Part shown: positions 6,603 to 33,791 of the stretch, piece after piece
Layout of the letters: each line of letters opens with the position of its first letter
How positions within the stretch are numbered: position 1 is the first letter of the stretch
Origin: Tomitella biformata AHU 1821
GTDB lineage: Bacteria; Actinomycetota; Actinomycetes; Mycobacteriales; Mycobacteriaceae
Direction: 5' to 3'
NCBI RefSeq assembly: GCF_000524475.1
Contig: NZ_BAVQ01000038.1
Span: 1-33,791 of the forward strand
Length of the DNA: 33,791 nt
Made by a program: the position numbers and the translations under genes
The notes under the pieces: model-generated
Seen by the model: the letters and a program-made list of their open reading frames with translations, nothing else
Told to the model about the DNA's origin: nothing
Databases searched by the model: none

Positions 6603-7622
6603 ATGACGGCCACATCTGCACCCACGCACCGCGAGGCTCCCGATCGCAACCTCGCCATGGAGTTGGTGCGCGTGACAGAGGCGGCTGCCATGGCGGCCGG
6701 ACGCTGGGTCGGGCGCGGTGATAAAGAGGGCGGCGACGGCGCAGCGGTAGACGCCATGCGCCACATGGTCAGCTCGGTCTCCATGCGCGGCGTCGTCGTG
6801 ATCGGCGAGGGCGAGAAGGACGAGGCCCCGATGCTGTACAACGGCGAAGAGGTCGGCAACGGCGACGGCCCCGACTGCGACGTCGCGGTTGACCCCGTCG
6901 ACGGCACGACGCTGATGTCCAAGGGCATGCCGAACTCCATCGCGGTCCTGGCGTGCGCCGACCGCGGCGCCATGTTCGACCCGTCCGCCGTCTTCTACAT
7001 GGAGAAGATCGCGGTGGGCCCGGACGCCGCCGACGTTATCGACATTGAGGCCCCGATCCTCGAGAACATCCGCCGCGTCGCCAAGACGAAGCGCTCGGAC
7101 GTGTCCGAGGTGACGGTGTGCATCCTCGACCGTCCCCGCCACGCCAAGCTGATCCAGGACGTCCGCGACACCGGCGCGCGCATCCAGCTGATCTCCGATG
7201 GCGATGTCGCCGGCGCCATCGCCACCGCGCGCCCCGAGTCCGGCGTCGACATTCTGCTAGGCATCGGCGGCACCCCCGAGGGCATCATCGCGGCCGCCGC
7301 GATGCGCTGCATGGGCGGCGCGCTGCAGGGCAAGCTCGCCCCGATGGACGACGCGGAGCGCGAGAAGGCGATCGCGGCCGGGCATGACCTGGACCGCGTG
7401 CTGTTCACCGAGGACCTCGTCTCCGGCGAGAACATCTTCTTCTGCGCCACCGGCGTCACTGATGGCGACCTACTGCGCGGCGTGCGCTACGCGGGCGGCG
7501 GCGCGACGACGCACTCCATCGTCATGCGCAGCAAGTCCGGCACGGTCCGCATGGTCGAGGCACATCACCGGCTTGCAAAGCTGCGCGAGTACACCACGGT
7601 GGACTTCACCCACCAGGGCTAG
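6603..7622 (+). CDS. glpX: Fructose-1,6-bisphosphatase class II
   Basis: GlpX hydrolyses fructose-1,6-bisphosphate to fructose-6-phosphate, the committed step of gluconeogenesis, and is the main FBPase in mycobacteria. The 339-residue product has the metal-binding GEGEKDEAP (68-76) and DPVDGTT (97-103), plus [43 protein letters not shown] and a C-terminal [15 protein letters not shown], all class II hallmarks. The ATG at 6603 follows AGGAGG by 9 bases; a GTG at 6570 in the same frame lies too close to the probable -10 to be used. A strong hairpin 23 bases past the stop ends the unit. In mycobacteria glpX is directly followed by the fumarase gene; here 3.5 kb with a P450 gene, tetR and a secreted protein gene separates them. 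Confidence 0.96.
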
Positions 7623-7644
7623 ACGCGGAAGAGCTAAGACGGAC

Positions 7645-7690
7645 ACAGCCCGGCCGGGACAGCCCGCAATCGCTGCTCCGGCCGGGCTGT
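7645..7690. terminator. Bidirectional hairpin terminator
   Basis: A perfect 13-bp stem (ACAGCCCGGCCGG at 7645-7657 and its complement at 7678-7690) has a 20-base loop. It lies 22 bases after the glpX stop and 1 base beyond the stop of the convergent P450 gene. There is no strong U tract. Confidence 0.65.
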
Positions 7691-7691
7691 C

Positions 7692-8903: not shown

Positions 8904-8935
8904 GAGTGCTCCTCGTCCGTTCACGGATCTCGCCA

Positions 8936-8954
8936 ATTAACAGCGCCTGTTAAT
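8936..8954. promoter_or_regulatory. Palindromic TetR operator
   Basis: ATTAACAGCGCCTGTTAAT is a perfect 8-3-8 inverted repeat lying between the divergent P450 and tetR genes. It begins directly after the -10 of the P450 promoter and sits where the -35 of tetR should be, so a bound dimer would block both. A related half-site, CGTTAAT, recurs at 8961-8967. That the neighbouring TetR binds here is inferred. Confidence 0.75.
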
Positions 8955-8983
8955 AGTATCCGTTAATCTGTGCTCTATGTCAC
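8955..8983 (-). promoter_or_regulatory. P450 promoter
   Basis: On the minus strand GTGACA (8983-8978) and GATACT (8960-8955) are separated by exactly 17 bases, a near-ideal sigma-A type promoter. Transcription would start around 8948, inside the palindromic operator, giving a leader of about 45 bases with GAGGAG before the P450 ATG. Confidence 0.6.
8964..8969 (+). promoter_or_regulatory. -10 element of tetR
   Basis: TAATCT fits TAnnnT and ends 7 bases before the tetR ATG. No Shine-Dalgarno lies between, so tetR is probably leaderless. Its -35 region would be at about 8941-8946, inside the operator. Confidence 0.45.
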
Positions 8984-9618
8984 GGGAACCAAGCTCCACA
9001 CGAGAGAAGCTGCTGGCCGCGGGCGCGGAACTTTTCGCCCGCGACGGCATCGACGGGGCGCTGACCAGGGCCATCGTCACCGCGGCCGGCCAGTCCAACG
9101 ACTCCGCGATCAATTACCACTTCGGCTCCCGCCACGGCCTGCTCACCGCGATACTCGACGAGCACATGGCCGCCATCGAGTCCCGCCAACCCGAAGGGCC
9201 GCTGCCCGCGGACATCCCCGGGCTGATCCGCATCATCACAACCCCGGTTTCTCGCGAGCTGGAGTCGCCGGCGGGCCGCAACTTCCTCCGGATCATCGTG
9301 CAGCTGTCTGGACAGTCCGGCGTGACGACCCGGCAGATGCCGAATCCACTGCGCGGAAGCAGCGTCGGTGGCCAACTCGCTGCGCTGGACGACGCGCTGC
9401 GGACAGTCCTGCCGGAGGAGGTGGCGCTCGAACGCCTCGCCATGCTGGTCAGCATGCTGACCGCAGTGCTCGCGGACCGCGGCCGACGTCTCGACGGCGG
9501 CCAGCCCATCCTCCTCGACCACGACCTCTTCGTCGCCAACACCGTCGCGATGCTCACCGCGGCCATGCTCGCGCCCCACGCTGTAGGCCAGCCCGCCAGC
9601 CCACCGGTCGAAAACTAA
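8977..9618 (+). CDS. TetR/AcrR-family transcriptional regulator
   Basis: The 213-residue product has an N-terminal TetR helix-turn-helix domain (about 8-58): TREKLLAAGAELFARDGIDGALTR, then AAGQSNDSAINYHFGSRHGLLTAIL, with the usual YHFGS recognition-helix end. The C-terminal part (about 85-205) is helical and should form the ligand pocket and dimer interface. Such proteins are usually repressors released by a small molecule. The divergent P450 gene and the perfect palindrome between the two suggest that it represses the P450 gene and itself, and that the P450 substrate or a related compound is the inducer. The gene for a secreted protein starts 8 bases after its stop, so it is probably in the same transcript. 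Confidence 0.92.
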   Translation: MSREPSSTREKLLAAGAELFARDGIDGALTRAIVTAAGQSNDSAINYHFGSRHGLLTAILDEHMAAIESRQPEGPLPADIPGLIRIITTPVSRELESPAGRNFLRIIVQLSGQSGVTTRQMPNPLRGSSVGGQLAALDDALRTVLPEEVALERLAMLVSMLTAVLADRGRRLDGGQPILLDHDLFVANTVAMLTAAMLAPHAVGQPASPPVEN

Positions 9619-19583: not shown

Positions 19584-20701
19584 ATGCGGATACGACGGAG
19601 CGCAACCATGATCGCACTGGCTGGCGCCATGCTCGCGGTGTCAGCCACCCCGGCCTTGGCCGATCCCGCCTCGGACTACACCGGAGCCGTGTCGCTCGGA
19701 ATCCTGGCCCCCGGCGCCGGACCGGCAGCCTGCGTCCCGCTCGGGCTTTGACACGTTCCCCGTCGCCGACCAGACCGGCCTGCCCGGGCGCGTGGACCTG
19801 CGCACCGCGACGACCACCTTCAACCGCCTGTGAACTGCACACACGTCCCCGGGAGGACCCGGGACCGTGGCGGCTCGTGCCCCTCCCGCACTGCCTGAAC
19901 GGAATCCTGACCAGTATCTCCGTCGACGACGATGAGATGACCGCCATAGACGGCGAAGGCTGGCTGTACACGATGGACAACGTGCTGCACCCGCCCTGGA
20001 TGTGGAACTGGACATCCTCGTTCGGCGCCCCGCTCTGGCTCGACCGCGGGCAGCAGATGCCGGACGGGCATGGGATTGGGCGGCCTCGGTGCACTCCCCC
20101 CAGGAGCAGCGCACCTTCACCGACACCGCAGGCCATCAGCAGTTCGTGGGCAATGCCAAGTGCACGATGACCGTGGTGCTCGTCGACGACGGCAGCCGAA
20201 TCGTCTACCTCGACCCGTGGCTGCCCAACGATCACAGCTATGAGATCGGCGCCCCCCTGGGCGGCCGGTTCCAAGCGCAGTCGCTGTCCGCCGCGGCGTC
20301 CACCACGTTCGTGATGAACGAGTACGGCGACATGTACACCCGCCTGTTCGACTTCGACATCGCCGGCGCCGACACGTTGTTCTTCCAGTATTCGTGGGCC
20401 GACCAGAGCGGACTTCGAGCGCCCGACAACCAGTTCAGCGGCCTCCTCGAATCCGGCATCGCGAAGATCCAGCTGCCCGCCCCGTCGTGGGAGCACCAGC
20501 CGAAGATCCCCGGCGAGATCACCTCGCAGATCTCCATCGAGCCCACCGGTGCGGGCTCCGACGCGCGCGAGCTCCACGTCGAGGGCCGCCAGGACGGCCA
20601 AAACGGATACTGGCACAAGATGATCCGCGACGACGCGTGGTCGTTCACTGGGCGTGGACGTCACCGAGACGACGATGGCAATCCACCGCCAGGACCCCTG
20701 A
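19584..20701 (+). pseudogene. Frameshifted secreted-protein pseudogene
   Basis: Protein-like sequence continues across changing frames. It begins at ATG 19584 with a clear signal peptide (MRIRRSATMIALAGAMLAVSATPALA|DP), which stops at 19751. It resumes in the next frame as GFDTFPVADQTGLPG... to a stop at 19833, moves to the third frame (VDDDEMTAIDGEGWLYTMDNVL, to about 20050), then to another frame (QFVGNAKCTMTVVLVDDGSRIVYLDPWLPNDH..., about 20070-20650). Near 20650 it shifts once more and ends naturally as VDVTETTMAIHRQDP with stop at 20699-20701. At least four frame changes are needed, so the gene is decayed. The ancestor would be a secreted protein of about 370 residues, possibly propeller-like; no family recognised. 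Confidence 0.75.
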
Positions 20702-20721
20702 CCGCGGCCCTGAACGGCACT

Positions 20722-20760
20722 CGGCCCCATCCGCACGCTGCGGATGGGGCCGGTTGTCCT
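20722..20760 (+). terminator. Rho-independent terminator
   Basis: A perfect 14-bp stem (CGGCCCCATCCGCA at 20722-20735, complement at 20739-20752) with a 3-base loop is followed by GTTGTCCTTTT, a U-rich tail for the plus strand. It would end transcription of the pseudogene and probably also serve the converging minus-strand gene. Confidence 0.85.
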
Positions 20761-20765
20761 TTTAG

Positions 20766-21314
20766 CTAGGGGCAGTTGACGGTGTAGTTCCACTCGGTGC
20801 CCTGCGGTCCGGTGACACGGACCATCACGGATGACGACGCGCCGGCCGGGACGTCGACCCAGATGCCGCCGGTCCCCTGGTTGAGGTTGTCGCCGACATA
20901 GCCGGTGTTCGCAATGATGCGGCCTTGGTAGAGCACCTCAATCTGGTCGGGGACGTTGATCGTCTCGTAGCGTAGGTAGAACCGCGTCGGGCCGGCCCTG
21001 CCGAGGTCGTGGTTGGTGATGGTCGTGCCCGCGCCACCAGAGATGGTTGTCGCCGAGCACGGCTGAGTGGGCGCCAGACTCCCGGTCCCGTTGAGAACAT
21101 TCGTGCCGAAGTTGATCAGGCCGCCGATATCGGTGGGCGGTCCGTTGACCACGATGTCGCCGATGACGCCCTCGACGAAGCCCTCCGGGATCATGGCGCT
21201 GCCCAGCGCGCCGGCGTTAGAGGCGCTGCCCAGCGCGTTGGAGGCGCTGCCCAGCGCGGCGATGCCGGCGATCCGTCGACGGGTGCGAGTTCCCACTCGT
21301 GTCTTGTGCTCCAT
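20766..21314 (-). CDS. Small secreted protein with beta-sandwich-like domain
   Basis: The 182-residue product begins with a very basic stretch (HKTRVGTRTRRR), followed by a signal-like region built from repeats ALGSASN, ALGSASN, AGALGSA (21-40). Cleavage near ALGSA is likely but the core is unusually polar. The mature part has two cysteines (in PTQPCSATT and at the end, VNCP), likely a disulfide. The last 90 residues (RFYLRYETINVPDQIEVLYQG, TGYVGDN, GIWVDVPAGASSSVMVRVTGP) alternate short strands as in beta-sandwich carbohydrate-binding or Calx-beta-like domains. Family and function are unknown. Of two adjacent ATGs (21317, 21314) I chose the second, 6 bases from GGGGA. The upstream region is AT-rich. 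Confidence 0.75.
   Translation of the reverse strand: MEHKTRVGTRTRRRIAGIAALGSASNALGSASNAGALGSAMIPEGFVEGVIGDIVVNGPPTDIGGLINFGTNVLNGTGSLAPTQPCSATTISGGAGTTITNHDLGRAGPTRFYLRYETINVPDQIEVLYQGRIIANTGYVGDNLNQGTGGIWVDVPAGASSSVMVRVTGPQGTEWNYTVNCP
21196..21257. repeat. Three palindromic 14-mers in a signal peptide region
   Basis: GCGCTGCCCAGCGC occurs at 21196-21209, 21223-21236 and 21244-21257. Each copy is a 6-2-6 inverted repeat. Spacing is 27 and 21 bases, both multiples of three, so the copies encode in-frame ALGSA units. Confidence 0.85.
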
Positions 21315-21317
21315 CAT

Positions 21318-21607
21318 TCTTCCCCATTTCGGCAATACTTAAATATCAAGCGCTCTGTTTATCGGGTTCCACTCCCGATTCCTTCGGGGGCCATATTCAT
21401 ATCCCCAGCCACTGCACTCGACTATTCTCGCAATGCCGAACTGTGCGCACAAGTCCGTCAAACGATCGACATAATGCCACTACCAAACCCGATTATCACA
21501 ATCGAACACGGTAGTCATGCCCCAAATTCCATTGCCGTTAGTTCAATTATCCGACACTCCAGGAATCGAATTCAATACCGTTAGCGCGCGGAATTAAATA
21601 GTAATTC
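21318..21607. other. AT-rich intergenic region
   Basis: About 290 bases between phoH2 and the small secreted protein gene, both on the minus strand. G+C falls to 27/60 in 21481-21540 and 25/60 in 21541-21600, against 46/60 for 22141-22200. It contains no protein-like frame. It probably holds the promoter of the secreted protein gene: minus-strand TTGATATTTAAGTATTG lies just upstream of that gene. No tRNA or known riboswitch was recognised. Confidence 0.55.
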
Positions 21608-21616
21608 CTACGCGCG
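21585..21616 (-). terminator. Possible phoH2 terminator hairpin
   Basis: CGCGCG-GAATTA at 21585-21596 pairs with TAATTC (21602-21607) and CGCGCG (21611-21616), with the 3-base phoH2 stop codon as a bulge and a 5-base loop. There is no clear U tract. Confidence 0.35.
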
Positions 21617-22906
21617 GGGCGTGAACTCCTCCAGCATGTCGGTGACCAGCTCGGCGATGGCGGAACGCTCGCTGCGGTGCAGGGTGATGTGCGCGAACAG
21701 CGGGTGCCCCTTGAGCTTCTCGATCACCGCGGAGACGCCGTCATGCCGGCCTACGCGGAGGTTGTCGCGCTGCGCCACATCATGGGTGAGGACCACCCGC
21801 GAGCCGGAGCCCAGGCGCGAGAGCACCGTCAGCAGGACGTTGCGCTCGAGGGACTGTGCCTCGTCGACAATGACGAACGAGTCGTGCAGGGATCTGCCGC
21901 GGATGTGGGTCAGCGGCAGCACCTCGAGCATCCCGCGGGCGACGATCTCCTCAATGGTCGACGGCTCGGCGAGGCCCTCGAGAGTGTCGAACACGGCCTG
22001 CGCCCAGGGCCCCATTTTCTCGGACTCGCTGCCGGGCAGGTAGCCGAGCTCCTGCCCGCCGACGGCATAGAGCGGGCGGAACACGACGACCTTGCGGTGG
22101 CTGCGCCGCTCCAGCACGGCCTCCAGGCCCGCGCACAGCGCCAGCGCGGACTTGCCGGTGCCGGCGCGGCCGCCGAGCGAGACGATGCCGACGCTCTCGT
22201 CGAGCAGCAGGTCCAACGCCACCCGCTGCTCGGCGGAGCGCCCGCGCAAGCCGAACGCCTCCCGGTCTCCGCGCACCACCTGCACCAGCTTGTCGGCCGT
22301 CACGCGCCCCAGCGCGCTGGAGGTCCCGGCGAGGATCCGAACCCCGGTGTGGCAGGGCAGCTCTCGTGCCGCGTCGATGTCCGCGACGCCCTCGGCGAAG
22401 AGCCTGTCGATCTGCTGCACGGGCGCCTCCAGCTCCGCCATGCCGGTCCAGCCGGAGACGGCGACATCCTGCGCGTGGTACTCGTCGGCAGGCAGGCCCA
22501 CCGCGCCGGCCTTCACCCGCAACGGCGTGTCCTTGGTAACGAGGGTGACGGCCTTGCCCTCCGCCTGCAGGTTCAGCGCACAGGCCAGGATCCGCGCGTC
22601 GTTGCCATCGGTGCGAAAGCCTGCGGGCAGCACGCCCTGGTCGGTGTGGTTGAGCTCGACGCGCATGGTGCCGCCGTCATCCCCGATCGGGATGGGCAGG
22701 TCCAGCCTGCCGTGCTCGATTCGCAGATCGTCGAGCATGCGCAACGCCTCACGTGCGAACCAGCCGAGCTCGTGATGGTGCCGCTTGCCCTCCAATTCCC
22801 CGATCACGACCAGGGGCAGCACCACCTGGTGCTCGGCGAAGCGCGTCACCGCCCAGGGGTCTGACAGCAAGACGGATGTGTCCAGGACATACGTGCGAGT
22901 AGCCAT
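21608..22906 (-). CDS. phoH2: PhoH2: PIN-domain RNase fused to PhoH ATPase
   Basis: PhoH2 couples a PIN ribonuclease domain to a PhoH-type SF1-like ATPase and is reported to unwind and cleave RNA in mycobacteria. The 432-residue product has an N-terminal PIN domain (about 3-145) with the acidic residues D9 (YVLDTSVLL), E37/E39, D103 (TDGNDARIL) and D126 (VTKDTPLR). The PhoH domain (about 220-430) has Walker [10 protein letters not shown] (245-253) and Walker B FVIVDEAQ (344-351). Length and order match Rv1095. TAGGAG lies 6 bases before the ATG. In mycobacteria a small phoAT gene precedes it; no convincing counterpart is seen here. It is divergent from the jetA gene, with 286 bases between starts. 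Confidence 0.95.
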
Positions 22907-22922
22907 TGCGGACTCCTACGTC

Positions 22923-22939
22923 CGCCCGGCCGCCGGGCG
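22923..22939 (-). promoter_or_regulatory. Hairpin in phoH2 leader
   Basis: A perfect 7-3-7 GC-only hairpin (CGCCCGG / CCGGGCG) lies just upstream of the TAGGAG ribosome site of phoH2 on the minus strand. It could limit ribosome access; role inferred. Confidence 0.35.
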
Positions 22940-23142
22940 AACCTCGGTTATCGGGCCGGTCATCCCTATCGGGATTCCCGGACGGGCAGCTTCCCCACTG
23001 CCCGCTGGCTTCGACGGTACGGCGGCGCGCCCACCCAGGTCAGGACCAACACGGATCCGTAACATGAAGAGTTGCTGAACGGCTTTCGCCGACCAGGTGT
23101 CCGGCCAGGGCTGGCGTGGGAGAACCCACCGCGGAATCGACG

Positions 23143-23148
23143 TATCCT
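23143..23148 (+). promoter_or_regulatory. -10 element of the jetABC operon
   Basis: TATCCT fits TAnnnT and would start transcription near 23155, about 38 bases before the jetA GTG, with GAGGAG in the leader. No -35 is convincing. Confidence 0.35.
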
Positions 23149-23192
23149 TGACGCTGCCATCAACCCGCCCCCAAACCTCTGAGGAGACGTCT

Positions 23193-24803
23193 GTGCAGGA
23201 CAGCTCGGACCCACTCCCCGACGCAACAGCCCTGCCCGACGCCGCCCCACGGCCGTTCGCCCACCTGCAGGCCCAGAATGCAGCGACCTACCGCCAGATC
23301 ATGGGCGCGTTCGTGCAGGCCAAGAGGCGGTTCACCGTGCACCTGCGGCCGGAGGACGTTCGTGAGGCCATCTTCGAGTCCAGCGGTCTGGCGCCCGAGC
23401 CCACCACTGTCAACGACGCGCTGGTGGCGCTTGAGGGCTGGGGCAATCTGCGCTCGGACCCCGACACCAGCCGCGTCACCACCGTCGAGGACTTTCGCCG
23501 CGCCCGCTATCTGTACCAGCTGAGCCCACATGGGGAGGCCGCAGAGGAGGCGCTCGACACCTATGACGGGGCGCTGGGCCGGCGCGGTGCGCTGCAGTCC
23601 GTCGCGCTGATCGACATCGCCGAGCAGCTGCGGATCCTCCTCGAGCTCGCGCGCGCCGCGGATCCCGATCCGGCCAAGGCGTATCCGGCGCTCGTCGTGC
23701 TCGCCCAACGCTTCCAGGATCTCGCCGCCAACGCACAGGCCTTCATGGGGGCGCTGGCCCGCACCATCGACCTCCAAGACGGCGCCGCCGACGCGTTCGT
23801 CGCCTATAAGGACCGGCTGATCGAGTACCTGCAGCGCTTCATCAAGGACCTGCTGGGCACCGGCGGGGAGATCGCCCGGCTCATCGAGGACCTGGAGGCC
23901 GTGGGCGTCGGCCGGCTGCTCGAGATCGCCGCCGCCCGCGAGTCCCAGGACGTCGCCCCGGATCCCGCGCATCCCACGCCGACCGCCGCCGACGCCGCCG
24001 CGGAGCTCTTGCACAGCCACCTGCTGTGGCAGGACCGGTGGCAGGGCATCCGCGCGTGGTTCGTGGGCACCCCCCACCAGTCCAGCCAGGCCGCGCAACT
24101 GCGCGCGCAGGCCCGGGCTGCGGTCCCGCGGCTGCTGCAGGTGGTCGCCGCACTCAATGAGCGCCGCTCCGGCCGCTCGGACCGCGCCGCCGACTTCCGC
24201 ACGCTGGCGCTGTGGTTCGCGCAGGCGACCGACGACGCCTCGATGCACCGGCTCTGGCGCGGGGCGTTCGGGTTGTCCCCCAGCCGCCACCTGACGATCG
24301 ACATGGAAACCCTCGACGCGCGGGACGAGGATCCCGTCGACGCGGGCATGTCCTGGGCCTCGGCCCCGCCCTTGCTGATCAGCCCACGCCTGCGCCGCAC
24401 CGGGAGCTACGAGCGGCGCGGCAAGCCGAACCGGGTACAGGATCGCACCTCCGAGCGCCGCTACCTGGCCGAGCGCGCCACCCGCGAGGCCGCCGAGGTC
24501 GCCGCTGCCCGCGCCCGCCTGGCCACGGACGGCCCGATCCGGCTCTCCGATATCGGCCGGCTGGACCCGCCCGAGTTCCGGTTGTTCCTCGGACTCCTCG
24601 GCGACGCATTGGCCAGCAAGGCGGCCGGCGCCACTCGCGTCGAGACCAGCACCTCGGACGGCTCCATGGCGATCAGCCTGGCCGAGCTACCCGCCGGCGA
24701 TTCGGGACGGGCCCATATCGAGACCCCGCACGGGGTGTTCAGCGGCCCGGACCACCTGGTGCAGATCACCGACCTGGCGTCGGTGTCGGAGAGGACCGCC
24801 TGA
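23193..24803 (+). CDS. jetA: Wadjet JetA-type protein (DUF2397, TIGR02677 family)
   Basis: JetA is the kleisin-like (MksF-type) subunit of a Wadjet condensin, which extrudes DNA loops and senses closed circular plasmids. The 536-residue product matches the DUF2397 pattern: PFAHLQAQNAATYRQIMGAF near residue 20, then HLRPEDVREAI, LEGWGNLRSDPDTSRVTTVEDFRRARYLYQLSPHGEAAEEAL, a helical middle (about 130-380) and a tail of two short folds. The GTG at 23193 was chosen because GAGGAG lies 7 bases upstream; the frame extends farther without family-like sequence. It overlaps jetB by 1 base (TGATG). The subtype with DUF2397, DUF2398, TIGR02680 and DUF2399 proteins is, as I recall, Wadjet type III. Family call is by pattern memory. 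Confidence 0.85.
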   Translation: MQDSSDPLPDATALPDAAPRPFAHLQAQNAATYRQIMGAFVQAKRRFTVHLRPEDVREAIFESSGLAPEPTTVNDALVALEGWGNLRSDPDTSRVTTVEDFRRARYLYQLSPHGEAAEEALDTYDGALGRRGALQSVALIDIAEQLRILLELARAADPDPAKAYPALVVLAQRFQDLAANAQAFMGALARTIDLQDGAADAFVAYKDRLIEYLQRFIKDLLGTGGEIARLIEDLEAVGVGRLLEIAAARESQDVAPDPAHPTPTAADAAAELLHSHLLWQDRWQGIRAWFVGTPHQSSQAAQLRAQARAAVPRLLQVVAALNERRSGRSDRAADFRTLALWFAQATDDASMHRLWRGAFGLSPSRHLTIDMETLDARDEDPVDAGMSWASAPPLLISPRLRRTGSYERRGKPNRVQDRTSERRYLAERATREAAEVAAARARLATDGPIRLSDIGRLDPPEFRLFLGLLGDALASKAAGATRVETSTSDGSMAISLAELPAGDSGRAHIETPHGVFSGPDHLVQITDLASVSERTA

Positions 24804-26188
24804 TGAGCCGCCCGCCCAGCCCCGGCACGAGCGGGGCGCTGACGAATGCCCTGGCCGCCACGCGCGACGCGGAGCGGATGCGGGCCGCCCGCGCGCTGCT
24901 GCTACGCCCGCTCCTGCACGCCGCCGGGCAGGACGTCTCAAGGCGGGACCTCCCAGGCAGAGACATCCCAGGCAGGGACATCCCCGACCACGACGCTGAG
25001 ACCTTCGCGATGGTGCGGCGGCACGCCCAGTACCTACGCGATTGGCACCGCGCGAACACCGGTTGGTCGCTACTCGTGGACACGGAGCTGGCCCGCCTGG
25101 TCAAGACGGTCGAGTCGCGGCAGTCGGTCTCCGGCGAGCACACCCACCCCGCCGTCGACGCCCGCAGCAAGACTGCTTTCACGCGGCGCCGATACGTCCT
25201 GTTCTGTCTGTCGTTGGCCGCGCTCTCGCGCGCGGACACACAGATCACACTCGGTCGGCTGGCCGAGCAGGTGGTGTTGGGCGCCGCCGACCCGGAGCTC
25301 GCCGCCGCGGGCATCGCCTTCACCCTCGAGCACCGGGACGAGCGCTCCGACCTGGTGGCCGTGGTTCGCCGGCTCATCGAGTACGGGGCGCTCTCCCGGG
25401 TGGCGGGCGAGGAGGACTCGTTCGTGGACCACACCGGCGACGTCCTCTACGACGTCCAGCGTCGGGTGCTGTCCGCGCTGCTCGCCACCGACCGCGGCCC
25501 CTCCACCGTGGCGGCGGCCGACAATGGCGAGCGGCTCGCCCTGCTGACCGCGCCCCCGCGCGCCGCCACCGACGAGCACCACGAGCGGCAGCTTCGACGC
25601 CGGCTGACCCGTCGGCTCCTGGACGAGCCGGTCCTCTACTACGACGAGCTGGCTGCGGACGAGCGCGAGTATCTGGTCCGCCACCGCATCGCCATAACCC
25701 GCCGCATCGCCGAGTTCACCGGCCTGGTCGCGGAGGCGCGCCGCGAGGGGGTCGCGATGGTCGACCCCCACGACGAGCTCACCGACGTCCGCATGCCGGA
25801 GACCGGCACCACCGGCCACGCCACGCTGTTGGTCGCCGACTTCCTCGCGTCCTCAGGTAGCGCCGTCGTCCCCGTAGACGAGCTCCGCGAGTGGCTGCGG
25901 GCGCAGGCGCTGATGTTTGTCTCGCAGCACCTGTGGCGCAAGGACTCCGCCGAGCCTGCCGGTCAGGAGGAGCTCCTCGGCACGGTCCTGGACCGGCTGG
26001 AGGCCCTCCGGCTGATTGTCCGCGAGAGCGACCTCGACGCGGTCCGCCTGCGCCCGGCGATTGCCCGGTTCGCCCTGGCCGAGCCCACCGTCACCGGCCT
26101 GCCGGACCCCCAGGACCCCAGCGTTCAAGACCCCAGCGTTCATGATCCCAGTGTGCAAGACCCTAGCGTGGGAGTTTCGACTTCGTGA
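24803..26188 (+). CDS. jetB: Wadjet JetB-type protein (DUF2398, TIGR02678 family)
   Basis: JetB is the MksE-like winged-helix subunit that bridges kleisin and SMC heads. The 461-residue product has the DUF2398 run AFTRRRYVLFCLSLAALSRADTQITLGRLAEQV (about 125-157), ERSDLVAVVRRLIEYGAL, DVLYDVQRRVLSALLA, DEPVLYYDELAADEREYL and a C-terminal FVSQHLWRKD. Two in-frame minisatellites are unusual: RDLPG-RDIPG-RDIPD (residues about 48-62) and four copies of (Q/H)DPSV just before the end (about 437-456). Both look like add-ons to the family core. GGAGAGGA precedes the ATG that overlaps the jetA stop, and the stop overlaps the jetC GTG (GTGA), so the three genes are translationally coupled. Confidence 0.87.
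   Translation: MSRPPSPGTSGALTNALAATRDAERMRAARALLLRPLLHAAGQDVSRRDLPGRDIPGRDIPDHDAETFAMVRRHAQYLRDWHRANTGWSLLVDTELARLVKTVESRQSVSGEHTHPAVDARSKTAFTRRRYVLFCLSLAALSRADTQITLGRLAEQVVLGAADPELAAAGIAFTLEHRDERSDLVAVVRRLIEYGALSRVAGEEDSFVDHTGDVLYDVQRRVLSALLATDRGPSTVAAADNGERLALLTAPPRAATDEHHERQLRRRLTRRLLDEPVLYYDELAADEREYLVRHRIAITRRIAEFTGLVAEARREGVAMVDPHDELTDVRMPETGTTGHATLLVADFLASSGSAVVPVDELREWLRAQALMFVSQHLWRKDSAEPAGQEELLGTVLDRLEALRLIVRESDLDAVRLRPAIARFALAEPTVTGLPDPQDPSVQDPSVHDPSVQDPSVGVSTS
24944..24988 (+). repeat. 15-bp minisatellite (3 copies) in jetB
   Basis: Three tandem 15-base units encode RDLPG, RDIPG, RDIPD. The units differ by a few bases (for example CGGGACCTCCCAGGC and AGAGACATCCCAGGC). The repeat lies near the N-terminus of JetB. 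Confidence 0.8.
26111..26170 (+). repeat. 15-bp minisatellite (4 copies) at the end of jetB
   Basis: Four tandem 15-base units encode QDPSV, QDPSV, HDPSV, QDPSV. The first two are CAGGACCCCAGCGTT and CAAGACCCCAGCGTT; the last two differ more. The array ends 14 bases before the jetC start codon. Confidence 0.88.
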
Positions 26189-29100
26189 CCAGCACCAACC
26201 CTGTTTCCCTCGCCAGCCTCGTGGCCCCCGACGCGACCCCGCTGCCGATGCCGCAGCTCAGCCGCTGGCAACCGCTGCGCGCCGGCCTGGTGGACCTGTT
26301 CTACTACGACCGCGACGAGTTTTGGTTCCGCGACGGCCGCCTGCTCCTGCGCGGCAACAACGGCACCGGCAAGTCCAAGGTGCTCGCGCTGATGCTCCCG
26401 TTCCTGCTCGACGCGGACTTGTCCCCGCACCGGGTGGAGCCCGACGCCGACCCGAAGAAGCGCATGGAGTGGAACCTGCTGCTCGGCGGCGCGCACCAGA
26501 ACACCGAGCGGCTCGGCTACACGTGGCTGGAGTTCGGCCGGATCGATGAGGACGGTGTCGCGCAGTTCCGCACCATCGGCGCCGGGCTCAAGGCCGTCGC
26601 CGGTCGCGGCATGGCACCGCCCTGGTACTTCGTCACCCAGCAGCGCATCGGCGAGGATCTGTCCCTAGTCGACCACACGGGCATCGCACTGACGAAGGAC
26701 CGGCTCAGCGACGCGCTGGGCGAGCGCGGACTGCGCTATGACCGGGCCGGGGCCTACCGCCGGGCCGTTGACGAGGCCCTTTTCGGACTGGGCGAGCAGC
26801 GCTACGGCGCCCTCGTGGACCTGCTGATCCAGCTCCGCCAACCACAGTTGTCCAAGCGTCCCAGCGAGAAGGCCTTGTCCGCCGCCCTCACCCACGCGCT
26901 GCCGCCGCTAGACCAGGCGGTCCTCGCCGACGTCGCCGAGGCCTTCCGCAGCCTCGAGGAGGATCGGCAGGAGGTGTCCGATCTCAAGGAGTCCGCCGAC
27001 GCCACCGCGTCGTTCCTCCGCCGGTACCGCCGCTACGCGGAGTTGGTCACCAAACGCCGCGCCTACGAGCCCCAGCGCGCACAGTCCGGATTCGATGCCG
27101 TCGCAAAGGATTTGGCGCGCGCACAGGCCAAGCACAAAGCCGCGGAGCGCGACGCGGCGGCTGCGAAAAGCGCCCTCGCCCGGCTCGAGCAGGAGCAGGC
27201 CGGGCTGAGCGAGCGGGAACGGACGCTCCGCGGCAGCGAGGTGATGGACAGCGCCCGAGAGCTCGAGCACGCCGGCGAGGCGGCCACCGCCACGGCCACC
27301 GAGACTGCGCGGGCCGAGCAGGAGAGCGCCGCCGCGGAGCAGGTCGCCACCCGCAGGCAAGCCCAACTCGACGCCGTCACCGACCGGCTCGACAGTGCCC
27401 GCACAAGGCTCGAGGCCGTCCGCGCCCAAGCCCGCGCCGCCGCCGGGACCGCGGGCCTGGGCGCGCAGCACCTGCACCGGGTCGACGCCGACCTGAGCGG
27501 CGACGTGCGGCAGGCGGGCGAGCAGCTCCTCGGCGCCCACTCCCGCGCCATTGCCCACGTCCGCGACCTGCTCAGCGCCGCCGACGTGGCGGGCGCGCGC
27601 CTGGCGAATGCCCGCCGCGACCTCGACGGCGTCGACTCGCGGACCGTCGAGCTCGCCGACCGGACCGCTGCCGCACGCGAGCACATCGCCACCACCGCGT
27701 CGGATCTCGTCGCGGGCACCCGCCGACAGCTCCACGCCGCCCGGGAACTGGCGCTCCCACAGCCCGAGGACCTGCTGGCCGAGCTCGAGTTGTGGGCCGT
27801 CTCGGCCGCGGGCCCCAACCCGGCCGGGGCTCGCATCGCCGCCGCCAACGCCGCCGCCGACGAGCAGCTCGTGCTCGCCGGTGCGGCCATCTCCGGGCAG
27901 ACCTCTGCGCTGCGAGACGAGGACGCGGGGCTGCGCGCCGAGGCCACACGGCTCGAGTCCGGCGAGACCGCGTCCCCGGCGGCGCCGCACACCCGCTCGG
28001 CGTCCGCCCGCGCAGCGCGCCCCGGCGCCCCGCTGTGGCGGGTCACCGACTTCGCCGCAGACCTCGACCCCGCACAGCGCGCCGGATTGGAGGCAGCCCT
28101 CGAGGCCGCCGGCATCCTCGACGCGTGGATCACTCCCGACGGCGGGCTGACCAGTGCCGACGGCCATGACATCACACTCGCGCCCATGTCTGACACCGTC
28201 GGAATCGCCCTATCGACCGCGCTGACTCCGGCCATCGATTCCGCCGACCCGCAGGCCGCGGCGCTCTCCGACGCGGCCGTCACCGCGGTGCTGGACGCCA
28301 TCGGGCTCGTCCAACCCGGCGCGGACTCGGCGCTCGCGCACACCTGGGTCGGTCTCGACGGCGCCTTCCGCGTCGGTGTCCTCACCGGCTTCTGGCGCAA
28401 GGAGTCCGCGTCGTATATCGGCAGCGGTGCGCGCGAGGCCGCCCGGCGGGCCCGCCTCGGCGAGGTCCACCGGCGCCAGGACGAGATCGCCACGGCCCTC
28501 GAGGCACTGTCCGCGAGCAGCACAGAGCTGCGCGGACGGCGTCAGGCATTGGCCGCCGAGATCGCCGCCATCCCCACGGATATCCCACTGCGGCAAGCAC
28601 ATTCCGCGCTATCTGCGATCGCGGCGGACCAGCACCAGCTGACCAAGTCGAAGACCGTCGCCGCGGCGCAGGTCGCCGCGCTCGCCGAGGCCCATCTGGC
28701 TGCGACCACCGCCGCGGCGGAGGCCGCCGAGGACACGGGACTGCCCGCGGAGACGAACTCGGTCGAGGAGCTGCGGGACGCGCTGGGCGTCTACCGCGGA
28801 GCCCTGTCCGATTTGGCCGCCGAGCTCGAACGCCGCGACGGCGCCCTCACGGAGCTGGCGGAGCGGCGCGAGGAGTCGGAGGAGTCCGCCGCCGCGCTGC
28901 TCCTCGCCGGCGAACGCCTCGGCGTCGCCCGCCTCCGCGCGATCACCGCGCAGGAGCGCCTGGCCACGCTGCGCGGGAGCGTCGGCGCCGAGGTCCAGGA
29001 GCTGCACCACATGCTCGAGCAGGTCGGCCTGGATCTGGCCGCGAACAGGCAGGCGGCCACCACCGCCGCCGCCGAGCATGAGGCCGCCCTCGAGGCGCGG

Positions 29101-30345
29101 GGCACGGCGAGTGGGCTGCGGGTGCAGCTCGCCGACCGCGTTGAGGAGGCCCGCGAGCGCCAGCATGCCGCCGCGGAGTCTCTGCGGCGGTTCACCGCGT
29201 CCGGACTGCTCGCAGTGTCCATCCCCGGCGGCGCCCACCCGGATCCCGACACCCCTGGCGGCTGGTCGTCCGAGCAGGCCCTGGACCTGGCCAGGCACAT
29301 CGACGCGGCGCTGCCCGAGACGGCGTCGGGCGAGGACGCCCTCACCCGTGCCGAGCGCGCCGTCTCCGAGGAGCACAAGAGCCTCGCGGACGTGCTGGGC
29401 CGGCAGGGCAACAGCGTCGCCATCTCGACCGTCGATGGCGTCCTGGGCATCGAGATCACCTTCCGCGGCCGGCCCACGGGGGTCCTGGACTTGGCCGCCG
29501 CCCTCGAGACGGAGCACGGGGACCGCGACCGGCTGCTCAGCGAGCGTGAGCGCGCCATCCTGGAGAACCACCTCGTCGACGAGGTCGCCAGCACCATGCA
29601 GGAGCTCATCGCCGGCGCCGAGGGGCAGGTCGCCCGCATGAACGCCGAGCTGGACTCACGGCCCACCAGCACTGGCATGCGGTTGCGCCTGCACTGGCAG
29701 CCGCGCGATGATGGCCCCGCGGGGCTCGCCGCCGCCCAGCAGAAGCTGCGGCAGCTGCCGGACCTGTGGTCAGAGGAGGACCGTGCGGCCGTCGGCGACT
29801 TCCTCCAGCAGGAGATCGCGGACGTCCGCCTGCGCAACGCCACCGGCACCTGGCTCGAGCACCTCACCGAGGCCCTCGACTACCGGTCGTGGAACCGCTT
29901 CGTCATCAAGCGCCATCAAAACGGCCAGTGGCGATCAGCGACGGGCCCCGCTTCTGGCGGCGAGCGTGTCCTCGCGGCCAGCGTGCCCCTGTTCGCGGCC
30001 GCGTCCGCGCACTACGGGTCCGCCGGCAACCCGCACGCGCCACGCCTGGTCACGCTCGACGAGGCCTTCGCGGGCGTCGACGACAACGCCCGCGCCAAGT
30101 ACCTGGGGCTGTTGGCTGCCTTCGACCTCGACGTCGTGATGACGAGCGAGCGCGAATGGGGCTGCTACCCGGAGGTGCCCGGGCTCGCGATCGCGCAACT
30201 CTCCCGCACCGACGACGTCGCCGCGGTGCTCGTCACCAGGTGGGAGTGGGACGGCAAGCGCAAGCTGCGCGCCGCGGTCCCCGCGCGGGACAGCCTCGTC
30301 GCCCCCCAGGAGGTCGATCCAGACCAGTCGGAGCTGTGGGGATGA
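26185..30345 (+). CDS. jetC: Wadjet JetC-type SMC ATPase (TIGR02680 family)
   Basis: JetC is the SMC (MksB-like) motor of Wadjet. The 1386-residue product begins with the head: FYYDRDEFWFRDGRLLLRGNNGTGKSKVLAL, Walker A GNNGTGKS (57-64), then DPKKRMEWNLLLGGAHQNTERLGYTWLEFGR, typical of TIGR02680. Long Ala/Glu/Arg-rich coiled coils (about 270-560 and 740-1110) flank a hinge-like region (about 605-740, PLWRVTDFAADLD...). The C-terminal head has the ABC signature SGGE (1257-1260) and Walker B LVTLDEAF with D1292-E1293. All ATPase motifs look intact, so the motor should be active. It starts at the GTG overlapping the jetB stop. Its stop overlaps an ATG (ATGA), where jetD is usually found; no jetD follows. 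Confidence 0.92.
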   Translation: MTSTNPVSLASLVAPDATPLPMPQLSRWQPLRAGLVDLFYYDRDEFWFRDGRLLLRGNNGTGKSKVLALMLPFLLDADLSPHRVEPDADPKKRMEWNLLLGGAHQNTERLGYTWLEFGRIDEDGVAQFRTIGAGLKAVAGRGMAPPWYFVTQQRIGEDLSLVDHTGIALTKDRLSDALGERGLRYDRAGAYRRAVDEALFGLGEQRYGALVDLLIQLRQPQLSKRPSEKALSAALTHALPPLDQAVLADVAEAFRSLEEDRQEVSDLKESADATASFLRRYRRYAELVTKRRAYEPQRAQSGFDAVAKDLARAQAKHKAAERDAAAAKSALARLEQEQAGLSERERTLRGSEVMDSARELEHAGEAATATATETARAEQESAAAEQVATRRQAQLDAVTDRLDSARTRLEAVRAQARAAAGTAGLGAQHLHRVDADLSGDVRQAGEQLLGAHSRAIAHVRDLLSAADVAGARLANARRDLDGVDSRTVELADRTAAAREHIATTASDLVAGTRRQLHAARELALPQPEDLLAELELWAVSAAGPNPAGARIAAANAAADEQLVLAGAAISGQTSALRDEDAGLRAEATRLESGETASPAAPHTRSASARAARPGAPLWRVTDFAADLDPAQRAGLEAALEAAGILDAWITPDGGLTSADGHDITLAPMSDTVGIALSTALTPAIDSADPQAAALSDAAVTAVLDAIGLVQPGADSALAHTWVGLDGAFRVGVLTGFWRKESASYIGSGAREAARRARLGEVHRRQDEIATALEALSASSTELRGRRQALAAEIAAIPTDIPLRQAHSALSAIAADQHQLTKSKTVAAAQVAALAEAHLAATTAAAEAAEDTGLPAETNSVEELRDALGVYRGALSDLAAELERRDGALTELAERREESEESAAALLLAGERLGVARLRAITAQERLATLRGSVGAEVQELHHMLEQVGLDLAANRQAATTAAAEHEAALEARGTASGLRVQLADRVEEARERQHAAAESLRRFTASGLLAVSIPGGAHPDPDTPGGWSSEQALDLARHIDAALPETASGEDALTRAERAVSEEHKSLADVLGRQGNSVAISTVDGVLGIEITFRGRPTGVLDLAAALETEHGDRDRLLSERERAILENHLVDEVASTMQELIAGAEGQVARMNAELDSRPTSTGMRLRLHWQPRDDGPAGLAAAQQKLRQLPDLWSEEDRAAVGDFLQQEIADVRLRNATGTWLEHLTEALDYRSWNRFVIKRHQNGQWRSATGPASGGERVLAASVPLFAAASAHYGSAGNPHAPRLVTLDEAFAGVDDNARAKYLGLLAAFDLDVVMTSEREWGCYPEVPGLAIAQLSRTDDVAAVLVTRWEWDGKRKLRAAVPARDSLVAPQEVDPDQSELWG

Positions 30346-30485
30346 CGCCTTGTGAATTCTTGGCGACACCTGCCCCGGCCAGCCCGCCCTGTTATGGACT
30401 CCCTGCGGCAACTCCGGGCGGCCGGTCGGATGCCTTGCTGTCAGACCTGTCAGACCCCCTCGATACCGTGTACCCATGTCCCTGA
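30342..30485 (+). other. Short frame at the expected jetD position
   Basis: An ATG overlapping the jetC stop (ATGA) opens a frame of 47 codons ending at TGA 30483-30485, inside the SNF2 gene start. The encoded peptide is rich in Pro, Ala and Cys, with no TOPRIM or DUF2399 features. It may be the original jetD start left after a deletion, or chance. I do not claim it makes a protein. Confidence 0.25.
30464..30469 (+). promoter_or_regulatory. -10 element for leaderless SNF2 gene
   Basis: TACCGT (TAnnnT) ends 6 bases before the ATG at 30476. No AGGAG-like site is present upstream, so the mRNA probably starts at the ATG and the gene has its own promoter. A TTGCTG at 30435-30440 is too far away for a usual -35. 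Confidence 0.45.
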
Positions 30486-33400
30486 ACATCCCGTCCGAGC
30501 AGAATCGCGCCGTCTTGGTGCGTAAAGTCGGCGCGCCGATGTTTTTCCGCGGTGAGCAGTACGCGAAGAAGGACATGGTCCTCGAGCACCACATGAAGTC
30601 CGACAGCCCCACGGTCGAGGGCGTGGTGCGCGGCAGCGGCGGGGTCACGTACCGCACGTCGGTGTATCTGACGGACGGGCCGAGCGGATTCGTCTTCGAT
30701 ATGGGTGTGTGCACCTGCCCGGTGGCACTGAACTGCAAGCACGCCGTCGCGCTGCTGCTGGTGACGATCGACAACACCCTCCCCTCGGCGCCCACGCCGC
30801 TGCGCACGTGGCAGGCCGTGCTGAATATGGCTCTGCCCGCGGCCGTCGAGGCCCCGCAGGTCCCCCTCGGCATCCAGCTCGCCTCCAACCGCGACGCCCA
30901 CACTGGGGTGTCCGGTTGGCCGCTCACAGCGCGGATCGTCCGACCTGGCAAGACCGGCTGGGTCAATGACAACCTCGCCTGGTCCACCGTCCGCAATGCG
31001 AACATGGACGCCACCCCTGAGCACCTGCTGCTCCTGACCGAACTCTTCGCGCTGTACGAGTCCGGCGCCCGCGCCAACTCCCGCTATGGCTACGGCTACG
31101 GGGCCATCAAGGACATCGACCTCACACTCATCGACAGCGCCCGGCTCTGGCTGCTCCTCGAGGAGGCCCACGCGCTCGGCATCGAGTTGGTGCACCAGAC
31201 GAAACGGCTCGGCGCGTTGTCCCGGCCGACCACCGCGAACTTCACCGTAGACGTCGTCCACGCCGACGACACCGATGCGCTGTCCATCTATCCCCGCATC
31301 ATGTTCGACGGCCACCGCGTCACCGCGGACGAGGTCGGGTACATCGGCGAGCCCAGCCACGGGCTGTTCACTGTCGACTCCATGACCGGCGAGATCACCT
31401 TGGCCCGGTTGGACTCACCCATTCCCCGAGCTCTGCGCTCTCTGCTCGTAGACAGGGAGCCGCTGACCATCCCCTCTGAGGATCAGGACCAGTTCTCTGA
31501 CGTCTACCTGCCCCGTCTCCAACGTGCCGCGACGGTCGTGTCCTCCAACGAGTCATTCCAGCCCCCCGCGATCTCCGGGCCCACCCTGCAGCTGGTCGCG
31601 TCGTACGCCGACGCCCACCGCCTCGACCTGCGCTGGCAGTGGTCCTATGCGGTCGGCCGCGAGCATCGCCATAGCGCCCTGGACTCCATGGACATCGCGC
31701 ACTATCGCAATCTGTCGCTCGAGCGACAGATCATCGACCGCCTCGATGTGCCGTTCGAGAAGTACGGGCTCCGCCACTCCCCGCACACCGCCCTGCGGCC
31801 CTTCGTCTCGCTGACCGGCATGGACACGATGCGCGTGTCCACAGAGCTCATTCCGCTGCTGCGCACGCTCGAGGATGTGGAGGTCGTCGTCGACGGCTCT
31901 GCCGCGGACTACCGCGAGGCCGGGGACACGATGCGGATCGGTGTGTCCACCACCTCGTCCAAGCGCAACACCGACTGGTTCGATCTGGGCATCTCCATCA
32001 CCGTCGACGGCCAGGATGTGCCGCTGCCCGAGATCCTGGCCGCGATCGCCAAAGGCGAAACGCACCTGCTGCTGACCTCCGGCGCGTACATCTCGCTGGA
32101 CAAGCCGGAGCTGCAGGCGCTGCGCCACCTCGTCGAGGAGGCCCGGGCGCTGCAGGACAAAGACGAGGAGCATGACGGGCTGCGCATCAGCCGCTTCCAG
32201 GCAGGCCTGTGGGAGGAGCTCGCCGGCCTGGGCGTGGTCGAGAACCAGGCCGCGTCCTGGCAGCGACAGGTCCAGGGGCTCCTCGACTTGGAGTCCGTCG
32301 CCTCCGCCGAGGCCCCCGCGTCCCTGCAGGCGGAGCTGCGCCCCTATCAGCTCACCGGATACCAGTGGCTGGCATTCCTGTGGACGCACCAGCTCGGCGG
32401 CATCCTCGCCGACGATATGGGCCTGGGCAAGACCGTGCAGACCCTCGCCATGATCTGCCATGCGATGGAGCGTGATCCCGGCCTGCCGCCCTTCCTGATC
32501 CTCGCGCCCACCTCCGTCGTGCCGAACTGGGCCGACGAGGTCGCGAAGTTCGCGCCGCACCTGAAGGTCGTCACCATCACCGAGACACGCCGCAAGAGCG
32601 GCCAGGACCTCGCACAGACCATCGCGGGCGCGGACATCGTCATCAGCTCCTACACGCTGTTCCGGCTGGACTTCGACTCCTACGACGAGCTCGAGTGGTC
32701 CAGCCTGATCCTCGACGAGGCCCAGTTCGCGAAGAACCACCAGTCCAAGCTCTACCAGTGCGCCCGCCTGTTCCGCACGCCGTTCAAGCTCGCGATCACC
32801 GGCACGCCCATGGAGAACAACCTGATGGAGCTATGGGCGCTGCTCTCCCTCGTCGCCCCCGGCCTGTTCCCCAGCCCCAAGCGGTTCACCGAGTACTACC
32901 GTGTGCCCATCGAGAAGGGCGGGGACTCCGAGCTGTTGGCCCAGCTGCGCCAGCGGATCCGGCCACTCGTCCTGCGCCGCACCAAGGAGCAGGTGGTCTC
33001 CGACCTACCGGAGAAGTGGGAGCAGGTCCTCGAAGTCGATCTGCACCCGCGCCACCGCGAGCTCTACGACACCCAGCTCAAGCGCGAGCAGCAGAAGATC
33101 CTGGGCCTGATCGACGATATGGACAAGAACCGGTTCACGATCTTGCGCTCGCTGACCATCTTGCGGCAGCTGTGCCTCGATGCCAGCCTCGTCGACCAGG
33201 AGCATGAAGGCATGCCGTCGGCGAAGATCGACGCGCTGGTCGAGCATCTGCACGACGTTGTCGAGGGCGATCACCGAGCCCTCGTCTTCAGCCAGTTCAC
33301 CAGCTTCCTCGGCAGGGTCCGCGAGCGCCTCGACGAGGAGGGCATCGAGCACTGCTACCTCGACGGCAGCACCCGCGACCGTGCCGCCGTCCTATCCGCA

Positions 33401-33721
33401 TTCAAAACCGGCCAGGCGCCCGTGTTCCTGATCAGCCTCAAGTCCGGCGGCTTCGGCCTCAACCTCACCGAGGCCGACTACTGCTTCATCATGGACCCCT
33501 GGTGGAACCCCGCCACCGAGGCTCAGGCGATCGACCGCACCCACCGCATCGGCCAGACCCGCAACGTCATGGTCTATCGGCTCATCGCCCGCAACACCAT
33601 CGAGGACAAGGTGATGGCGCTCAAGGCCCGCAAGTTCGAGCTGTTCTCCAGCGTCCTCGACGACGGCGGAACCCTCTCATCCTCGATCAACGCCGACGAT
33701 ATCCGCGAGCTCCTGGCCTAG
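30476..33721 (+). CDS. SWIM zinc-finger SNF2-family DNA translocase
   Basis: The 1081-residue product is a bacterial SNF2/HepA-like ATPase expected to translocate on double-stranded DNA and remodel bound proteins. The N-terminus carries a SWIM zinc finger, CTCPVALNCKH (C79, C81, C87, H89), a DNA or protein binding module. A long SNF2-associated middle region (about 100-620) follows. The motor has QLTGYQWLAFL, Walker A DDMGLGKT (646-653), motif II DEAQ (747-750), TGTP (775-778), and in the second lobe ALVFSQFTSFLGRVRERL, LISLKSGGFGLNLTEAD and DPWWNPATEAQAIDRTHRIGQ, ending at Q1027. All motor motifs are intact. It lies 130 bases after jetC on the same strand but seems to have its own promoter. 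Relatives include the mycobacterial HelZ group; a link to the Jet genes is inferred. Confidence 0.93.
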   Translation: MSLNIPSEQNRAVLVRKVGAPMFFRGEQYAKKDMVLEHHMKSDSPTVEGVVRGSGGVTYRTSVYLTDGPSGFVFDMGVCTCPVALNCKHAVALLLVTIDNTLPSAPTPLRTWQAVLNMALPAAVEAPQVPLGIQLASNRDAHTGVSGWPLTARIVRPGKTGWVNDNLAWSTVRNANMDATPEHLLLLTELFALYESGARANSRYGYGYGAIKDIDLTLIDSARLWLLLEEAHALGIELVHQTKRLGALSRPTTANFTVDVVHADDTDALSIYPRIMFDGHRVTADEVGYIGEPSHGLFTVDSMTGEITLARLDSPIPRALRSLLVDREPLTIPSEDQDQFSDVYLPRLQRAATVVSSNESFQPPAISGPTLQLVASYADAHRLDLRWQWSYAVGREHRHSALDSMDIAHYRNLSLERQIIDRLDVPFEKYGLRHSPHTALRPFVSLTGMDTMRVSTELIPLLRTLEDVEVVVDGSAADYREAGDTMRIGVSTTSSKRNTDWFDLGISITVDGQDVPLPEILAAIAKGETHLLLTSGAYISLDKPELQALRHLVEEARALQDKDEEHDGLRISRFQAGLWEELAGLGVVENQAASWQRQVQGLLDLESVASAEAPASLQAELRPYQLTGYQWLAFLWTHQLGGILADDMGLGKTVQTLAMICHAMERDPGLPPFLILAPTSVVPNWADEVAKFAPHLKVVTITETRRKSGQDLAQTIAGADIVISSYTLFRLDFDSYDELEWSSLILDEAQFAKNHQSKLYQCARLFRTPFKLAITGTPMENNLMELWALLSLVAPGLFPSPKRFTEYYRVPIEKGGDSELLAQLRQRIRPLVLRRTKEQVVSDLPEKWEQVLEVDLHPRHRELYDTQLKREQQKILGLIDDMDKNRFTILRSLTILRQLCLDASLVDQEHEGMPSAKIDALVEHLHDVVEGDHRALVFSQFTSFLGRVRERLDEEGIEHCYLDGSTRDRAAVLSAFKTGQAPVFLISLKSGGFGLNLTEADYCFIMDPWWNPATEAQAIDRTHRIGQTRNVMVYRLIARNTIEDKVMALKARKFELFSSVLDDGGTLSSSINADDIRELLA

Positions 33722-33758
33722 CTGGCTATAGGTCTTGTCAAGTGCGGGCTGGCCCAGG

Positions 33759-33790
33759 TGGCATCGCCGTCGCGAGTGGCGGCGGTGCCA
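33759..33790 (+). terminator. Hairpin terminator after the SNF2 gene
   Basis: TGGCATCGCCG (33759-33769) pairs with CGGCGGTGCCA (33780-33790): 11 bp with one G-U pair and a 10-base loop. It lies at the window edge, so the tail after it cannot be seen. Confidence 0.5.
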
Positions 33791-33791
33791 G

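Follow-up and report, generated by a model that had tools for sequence, protein, structure and literature searches.

A type II Wadjet-type jetABC operon without a detectable type II jetD in Tomitella biformata and its congeners

What a Wadjet motor does once its nuclease gene is missing is the question raised by a locus of Tomitella biformata AHU 1821 (genome G000). SMC complexes fold chromosomes and cut plasmids, which gives the passage between these two activities its interest. For the Wadjet systems examined so far, mainly those of type I, the available part of PMC10586767 describes ATP-dependent sensing of circular DNA by JetABC and cutting by JetD; Smc5/6, in turn, silences some viral genomes, according to the available part of PMC7617805. 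The window analysed here is the whole stretch of 33,791 nucleotides, one entire contig of a 112-contig draft that ends 70 bases past an SNF2 gene. An earlier note, made from the letters alone, had read it as a jetABC operon lacking jetD.

The jetABC operon and the search for jetD

The three genes lie on the forward strand. The jetA gene (kleisin, DUF2397/TIGR02677; 23193..24803) starts with GTG after GAGGAG and scores 537.5 bits with TIGR02677 and 502.4 bits with PF09660. The ATG of jetB (KITE subunit, DUF2398/TIGR02678; 24803..26188) overlaps the jetA stop, and its product scores 340.5 bits with TIGR02678 and 313.8 bits with PF09661, the profile scan having begun at 24797 and the start codon at 24803 having been picked by a custom gene-calling script; genes in the compared loci were likewise predicted by custom script instead of a standard gene finder. 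The jetC gene (SMC ATPase, TIGR02680; 26185..30345) reaches 1240.8 bits with TIGR02680 and 1369.6 bits with the PADLOC model JetC2. These scores are about three times the curated cut-offs (165.85 for TIGR02677, 124.65 for TIGR02678 and 462.85 for TIGR02680), the matches span almost the full profile length, and the PADLOC models JetA2, JetB2 and JetC2 all match. JetC keeps the segments RGNNGTGKS (26350-26376), GPASGGE (29944-29964) and RLVTLDEAF (30043-30069), which we take to be Walker A, the signature and Walker B. The assignment in the earlier note to the DUF2397/DUF2398/TIGR02680 subtype with overlapping genes is thus borne out by profile scores and coordinates, as are the intact ATPase motifs, and the window holds the JetA, JetB and JetC components by which type II Wadjet is recognised. 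JetB has a repetitive tail of DPSVQ/DPSVH repeats (26105-26185) and, near its N-terminus, a short repetitive insert GRDIPGRDIP (24941-24994) that is missing from 13 relatives compared. Rfam families were not found within 20000-33791.

As the earlier note had stated, no jetD-type gene follows jetC. The position that jetD occupies in outside relatives is a gap of 130 bases (30346..30475), too short to hold it, after which the SNF2 gene begins. Since contig and window coincide exactly, a jetD beyond position 33791 could not be excluded from the window alone. The whole-genome search with DUF2399/TIGR02679 profiles that the earlier note had proposed gave no type II jetD in G000. TIGR02679 matched neither G000, in a search where no positive control matched, nor any of the five genus genomes, compared with 20 of 201 family genomes (8 above cut-off); PF09664 matched none of the genus genomes and no control either. 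A JetD profile built from 15 JetD proteins, with which three positive-control genomes score 424-543 bits, had no match in G000 or in the congener G004, and gave weak matches of 16-21 bits in G001-G003, all inside one conserved gene. These were rejected as jetD: the translation carries GPPGTGKT and DEVH, and the gene is read by eye as a RarA-like AAA ATPase. The suggestion that jetD had moved beyond the window is therefore unsupported for type II jetD, which was found neither in G000 nor in two near-complete congeners. Because the JetD component of type II Wadjet (DUF3323/DUF2399, TIGR02679) neither follows jetC nor turned up in the searches of the whole genome, we do not class the operon as a Wadjet defence system; it has the composition of the nuclease-less Wadjet group, an operon of SMC, kleisin and KITE subunits without MksG/JetD.

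The same arrangement recurs in the genus. The near-complete genomes G002 (an assembly of two contigs) and G003 (one contig) carry jetABC without jetD, and a GH31 gene, identified by a Pfam run on the G003 gene, lies on the opposite strand 21 and 37 bases after jetC. In G001 the operon is divided over two contig ends, with flanking genes as in G002 and G003: a lipoate-ligase/WYL-regulator pair lies upstream of jetABC and GH31 downstream in all three. The WYL-domain regulator is divergent from jetABC and conserved alongside the operon (loci L018, L019 and L021). The open frames of jetA, jetB and jetC are intact in G000, G002 and G003. No type II jetC match was obtained in G004 (81% complete), and jetABC occupies two unrelated chromosomal sites in the genus; both observations suit an accessory gene set better than a housekeeping one.

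Descent of the operons and jetD in the wider family

Outside relatives were sought by scanning the genome_contigs collection with two short peptide patterns, only contigs matching either pattern being visible. In total, 109 JetC relatives were confirmed and the best 80 kept, with 40-55% identity and mostly from other actinobacterial genera. By the JetD profile, jetD stands directly after jetC in 77 of these best 80 of 109 loci, counting L153 with a partial jetD at its contig end; at the remaining three the contigs end within jetC. Loss of jetD was not seen in outside-genus operons among the best 80 of 109. A plasmid-borne origin was rejected, JetC relatives occurring in 20 of 72,556 plasmid records, all below 60% identity and none covering 80% of the protein.

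In a concatenated JetA, JetB and JetC tree of 24 rows (25 were selected, of which one fell out; G001 was not among them), the window, G002 and G003 form one clade with support 100/100. Its sister is the operon of Nocardia amamiensis, which has jetD, and the operons among which the clade is nested, most of them from Pseudonocardiaceae, carry jetD as well. Two groupings requiring two losses were rejected (p-AU 2.4e-4 and 2.5e-7). With a single nested clade and the alternatives rejected, one jetD loss suffices, most simply placed in the common ancestor of the genus operons. The clade looks old, judged from its branches of 0.49 and 0.61. Two earlier JetC trees were quick trees, the 71-row one flagged for long branches and one lacking L110 for want of a predicted gene; in them the window, L075 and G002/G003 form an unresolved fork, which the concatenated tree resolves.

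Loss of jetD is not unique to the genus, as many loci of the wider family have no jetD. TIGR02680 matches above cut-off were obtained in 80 of 201 family genomes and TIGR02679 matches in 20 of 201. Among 64 family JetC loci including the window, jetD stands within or next to the operon at 18 and is missing from 46, and the jetD scores are all-or-none, above 300 bits or nothing at E <= 1. Walker A was recognised by pattern in 45/46 JetC proteins of loci without jetD and in 18/18 of jetD-bearing ones, signature and Walker B in 41/46 and 16/18; the misses all fall in one divergent JetC subgroup, of which one member without jetD misses Walker A too. From jetC to the next predicted gene, the median distance at the 46 loci is 90 bases, with one above 900. 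Placement of jetD upstream of jetA was rejected for loci without it: among ten upstream genes at ten family loci, two are MFS, one PAC2 and one desaturase genes, six have no Pfam match, and none is picked up by the JetD profiles. G066 (L063) and G143 (L064) have a distinct operon in which jetD precedes jetA, the order being D-A-B-C.

At least eight changes of jetD state are needed on well-supported branches of the 71-row JetC tree, whose rows were chosen, not drawn: 18 jetD-bearing (from 18 of the 20 TIGR02679-matching family genomes, G120 and G132 not being taken), 46 without jetD (part of those available) and seven from outside. The JetD tree reproduces the main splits seen for JetC, so that ancestral presence of jetD with repeated loss is the simplest account. 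One conserved chromosomal locus houses the operon in several genera (L059, L165, L162, L190 and others); there it is followed downstream by a class I cysteinyl-type ligase gene, presumably mshC-like, an uncharacterised gene, DUF3090, a histidine phosphatase and BacA, and preceded in some genomes by PAC2 and MFS genes. This locus includes jetD in G150, G058, G115, G200, G139, G109 and G144. The ligase gene directly follows jetC in G039, G078, G018, G194, G026, G096, G009, G102, G174 and G051, and five more loci without jetD have another predicted gene between jetC and the ligase gene.

It is plausible, and we put it forward tentatively, that type II Wadjet has dropped its nuclease repeatedly in the family while the three-gene motor lived on, in several cases at one fixed chromosomal locus. 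If true, a plasmid-defence machine would have been converted recurrently into a chromosomal condensin, with Tomitella as one independent case. Neither a single old loss in a jetD-bearing clade nor repeated loss at a fixed locus was found in the literature searched, and Data S1 of PMC7617805 may hold such cases. Natural same-locus pairs with and without jetD are available (G109/G144 versus G194/G026; G150/G058/G115 versus G039), and, next to a genus that yielded no copy with jetD, they make it possible to test directly what the motor does after nuclease loss.

Possible roles of the motor without its nuclease

The most likely function of the operon, and in our assessment a probable one, is that of a nuclease-free, condensin-like, loop-extruding SMC complex. 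The three genes encode a complete motor of the type II Wadjet/Mks kind, with JetC as ATPase, JetA as kleisin and JetB as KITE subunit; without JetD, the complex would still load on DNA and extrude loops with ATP, and no cutting would follow. It may have been retained in an auxiliary, condensin-like capacity, acting on chromosomal or extrachromosomal DNA, comparable to nuclease-less MukBEF on the chromosome. MukBEF is a member of the Wadjet group that lacks a nuclease yet folds the chromosome, and several other members are also without MksG/JetD, as described in the available part of PMC7617805; a condensin-like role is therefore favoured over its rivals. Among the four readings offered by the earlier note, the nuclease-less condensin fits best and the chance adjacency to a helicase also stands, whereas SNF2 as effector and a type II jetD beyond the window do not.

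The sister species provide a measure of selection. Between G002 and G003, dN/dS is 0.125 for JetA, 0.308 for JetB and 0.195 for JetC, with 0.070-0.240 for three flanking genes; the G002/G001 pair gives 0.137, 0.287 and 0.218, the JetC value being from a partial sequence. The jetABC genes are thus under purifying selection in the sister species, dN/dS being taken from the G001-G003 copies and not from that of the window. An intact motor without nuclease, in this species and its sister, suggests that the motor has been kept for another job on DNA.

Residue conservation was assessed at columns in which conservation among jetD-bearing operons reaches 95% or more; seven jetD-bearing comparators helped define these columns. 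JetA of the genus operons departs at 2-4 of 121 such columns (comparators 0-3) and JetB at 3-5 of 91 (comparators 0-5); for JetC the window departs at 8 and G002/G003 at 15-16 of 271 (comparators 1-11). The higher JetC counts in G002/G003 could reflect some relaxation, though the comparators helped define the columns; JetC of these two looks somewhat freer than in the comparators, and nothing looks broken. Loss of JetD-contact residues was considered and rejected, just 2 (JetA), 1 (JetB) and 5 (JetC) conserved columns being changed in all genus rows, with no evident cluster.

The same data bear on a reading in which the operon still serves defence, JetABC recognising small circular DNA by extruding it and then, in the manner of Smc5/6, silencing it or else disturbing its segregation without cleavage. 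JetA and JetB about as conserved as in jetD-bearing relatives, selection on the sister operons, and the patchy occurrence at two sites in the genus are all compatible with this reading, as is the description of JetABC as sensor and JetD as effector in the available part of PMC10586767. The operons without jetD in the family, standing at one conserved locus in several genera, are better fitted by a housekeeping role, and we consider defence without cleavage unlikely.

That the operon is a decaying defence system, its nuclease gone and itself on the way out, appears quite improbable. In its favour, cleavage would already end with the loss of the executing subunit, G000 retains just a remnant of its type I system, and JetC of G002/G003 is the somewhat freer protein noted above; against decay stand the three intact frames in G000, G002 and G003, the sister dN/dS of 0.12-0.31 and the apparent age of the clade.

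A nuclease acting in trans, either a type I JetD or an unrelated host nuclease that completes the type II motor, was weighed against the type I systems of the genus, within which alone type I jetD was searched. PF09983 (JetD_C) detects type I jetD in G000, G003 and G004. Judged by layout, the G003 and G004 copies are the last gene of a four-gene type I operon, of which JetA, JetC and JetD of G003 were checked with Pfam. In G000 a relic type I Wadjet lies on the minus strand at 7590-9142 of locus L195 (contig C31, 28000-44000). Its jetD is intact (DUF3322/JetD_C, 380 aa, ENQE and GDLD motifs kept), with 55% identity to that of G003 and 52% to that of G004. Beside it is a JetC stub matching 147 residues near the type I JetC C-terminus; an unrelated SIMPL gene adjoins, and no type I jetA or jetB match was obtained in 16 kb around. 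The genome thus holds a motor without nuclease (type II) and, elsewhere, a nuclease without motor (type I). The earlier note had held that a jetD elsewhere in the genome would speak against a new variant: one exists, of type I, and none of type II was found. With most of its own motor deleted, this intact type I jetD would suit cooperation in trans. The N-terminal domains of the JetD proteins scanned differ, however, between type I (DUF3322) and type II (DUF3323), and G001 and G002 carry jetABC with no match to JetD_C, the type II jetD searches there giving none either. With the motor alone in these two, cooperation of a type I JetD with the type II motor is possible but unlikely, and we regard completion in trans as very improbable.

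The remaining candidate partner is the gene after jetC. The SNF2 gene (30476..33721, forward strand), whose neighbour in congeners is phoH, encodes SNF2 and Helicase_C domains, and its SWIM finger falls just under the Pfam cut-off (18.5 versus 19.6 bits), in agreement with the SWIM-SNF2 translocase that the earlier note had described. Its product scores 774 bits with the PADLOC DpdE model. On the left flank of the operon lies a PIN-PhoH gene (21608..22906, reverse strand; Pfam PIN_4 and PhoH). In G001, G002 and G004, phoH and SNF2 are direct divergent neighbours, with 0.17-0.35 kb between the matches and no jetABC; in G002 jetABC lies 0.5 Mb from this pair. In G003, SNF2 gave no match at E <= 1e-100 and PhoH one of just 33%, and jetABC of G001-G003 is located elsewhere with no SNF2 beside it. 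In the intergenic region between phoH and jetA (22907..23192), two short blocks, 22909-22936 and roughly 22976-23007, have counterparts between phoH and SNF2 in G001 and G002. Insertion thus took place to the right of these blocks, jetABC having entered between phoH and SNF2. Fourteen bases of the phoH 5' coding region (22858-22871) recur inverted at 30434-30447, shortly before SNF2 and on the far side of the inserted jetABC segment; this is possibly a trace of insertion, or chance.

The window-type SNF2 is present at E <= 1e-100 in 94 of 201 family genomes, in 61 of them without JetC above cut-off. Among the 33 family genomes having both, three (G000, G066 and G155) have it at a known distance of at most 10 kb from jetC, a count made by eye, the two sitting on different contigs in many drafts. 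The survey that the earlier note had proposed, of how often a SWIM-SNF2 gene follows jetABC in relatives, hence returned no recurrence. Among the best 80 of 109 outside loci, SNF2 relatives of 28-31% identity occur in the fetched flanks of two.

In G066 an SNF2 protein 51-53% identical to that of the window is encoded 0.1 kb from jetC, convergent and beside a jetD-bearing operon. SNF2 as a replacement effector working with JetABC, a reading that the same strand, the 130 bases from jetC and the G066 pair would favour, is rejected by the synteny of the congeners, where phoH and SNF2 adjoin without jetABC and jetABC stands without SNF2, and with no nuclease domain found in a domain scan it is hardly credible. 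The neighbourhood of jetC and SNF2 arose by chance, as the earlier note had allowed when it named chance adjacency to a helicase. In the preferred reading, the operon, moved or acquired, would have been inserted between phoH and SNF2 in this species, the SNF2 protein playing no part in a condensin-like complex.

Comparison with known systems

Nuclease-less Wadjet-group operons are already in print, in the available part of PMC7617805, and the window operon is not a first of its kind. Pipelines that call Wadjet defence from jetA-C alone would presumably mislabel such loci. The closest known system is type II Wadjet (JetABCD; DUF2397-DUF2398-TIGR02680-DUF3323/DUF2399), with which the window shares the JetA, JetB and JetC families, the gene order and the overlaps; its JetC is 40-55% identical to JetC of jetD-bearing operons from other genera (best 80 of 109). 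It differs from that system in lacking jetD after jetC, and searches of the whole genome gave no type II jetD either.

A second likeness is to MukBEF and to MksBEF without MksG, for which, as far as the available sources describe them, an operon of SMC, kleisin and KITE subunits likewise comes without a nuclease. The window operon differs from these in its sequence family (TIGR02680) and in being nested among jetD-bearing operons, and any chromosomal role of it would be a predicted one. MksB of Mycobacterium smegmatis, a replisome-associated condensin as cited in the available part of PMC13121528, is an actinobacterial Mks-type SMC protein with a chromosome role and may be comparable to the window operon.
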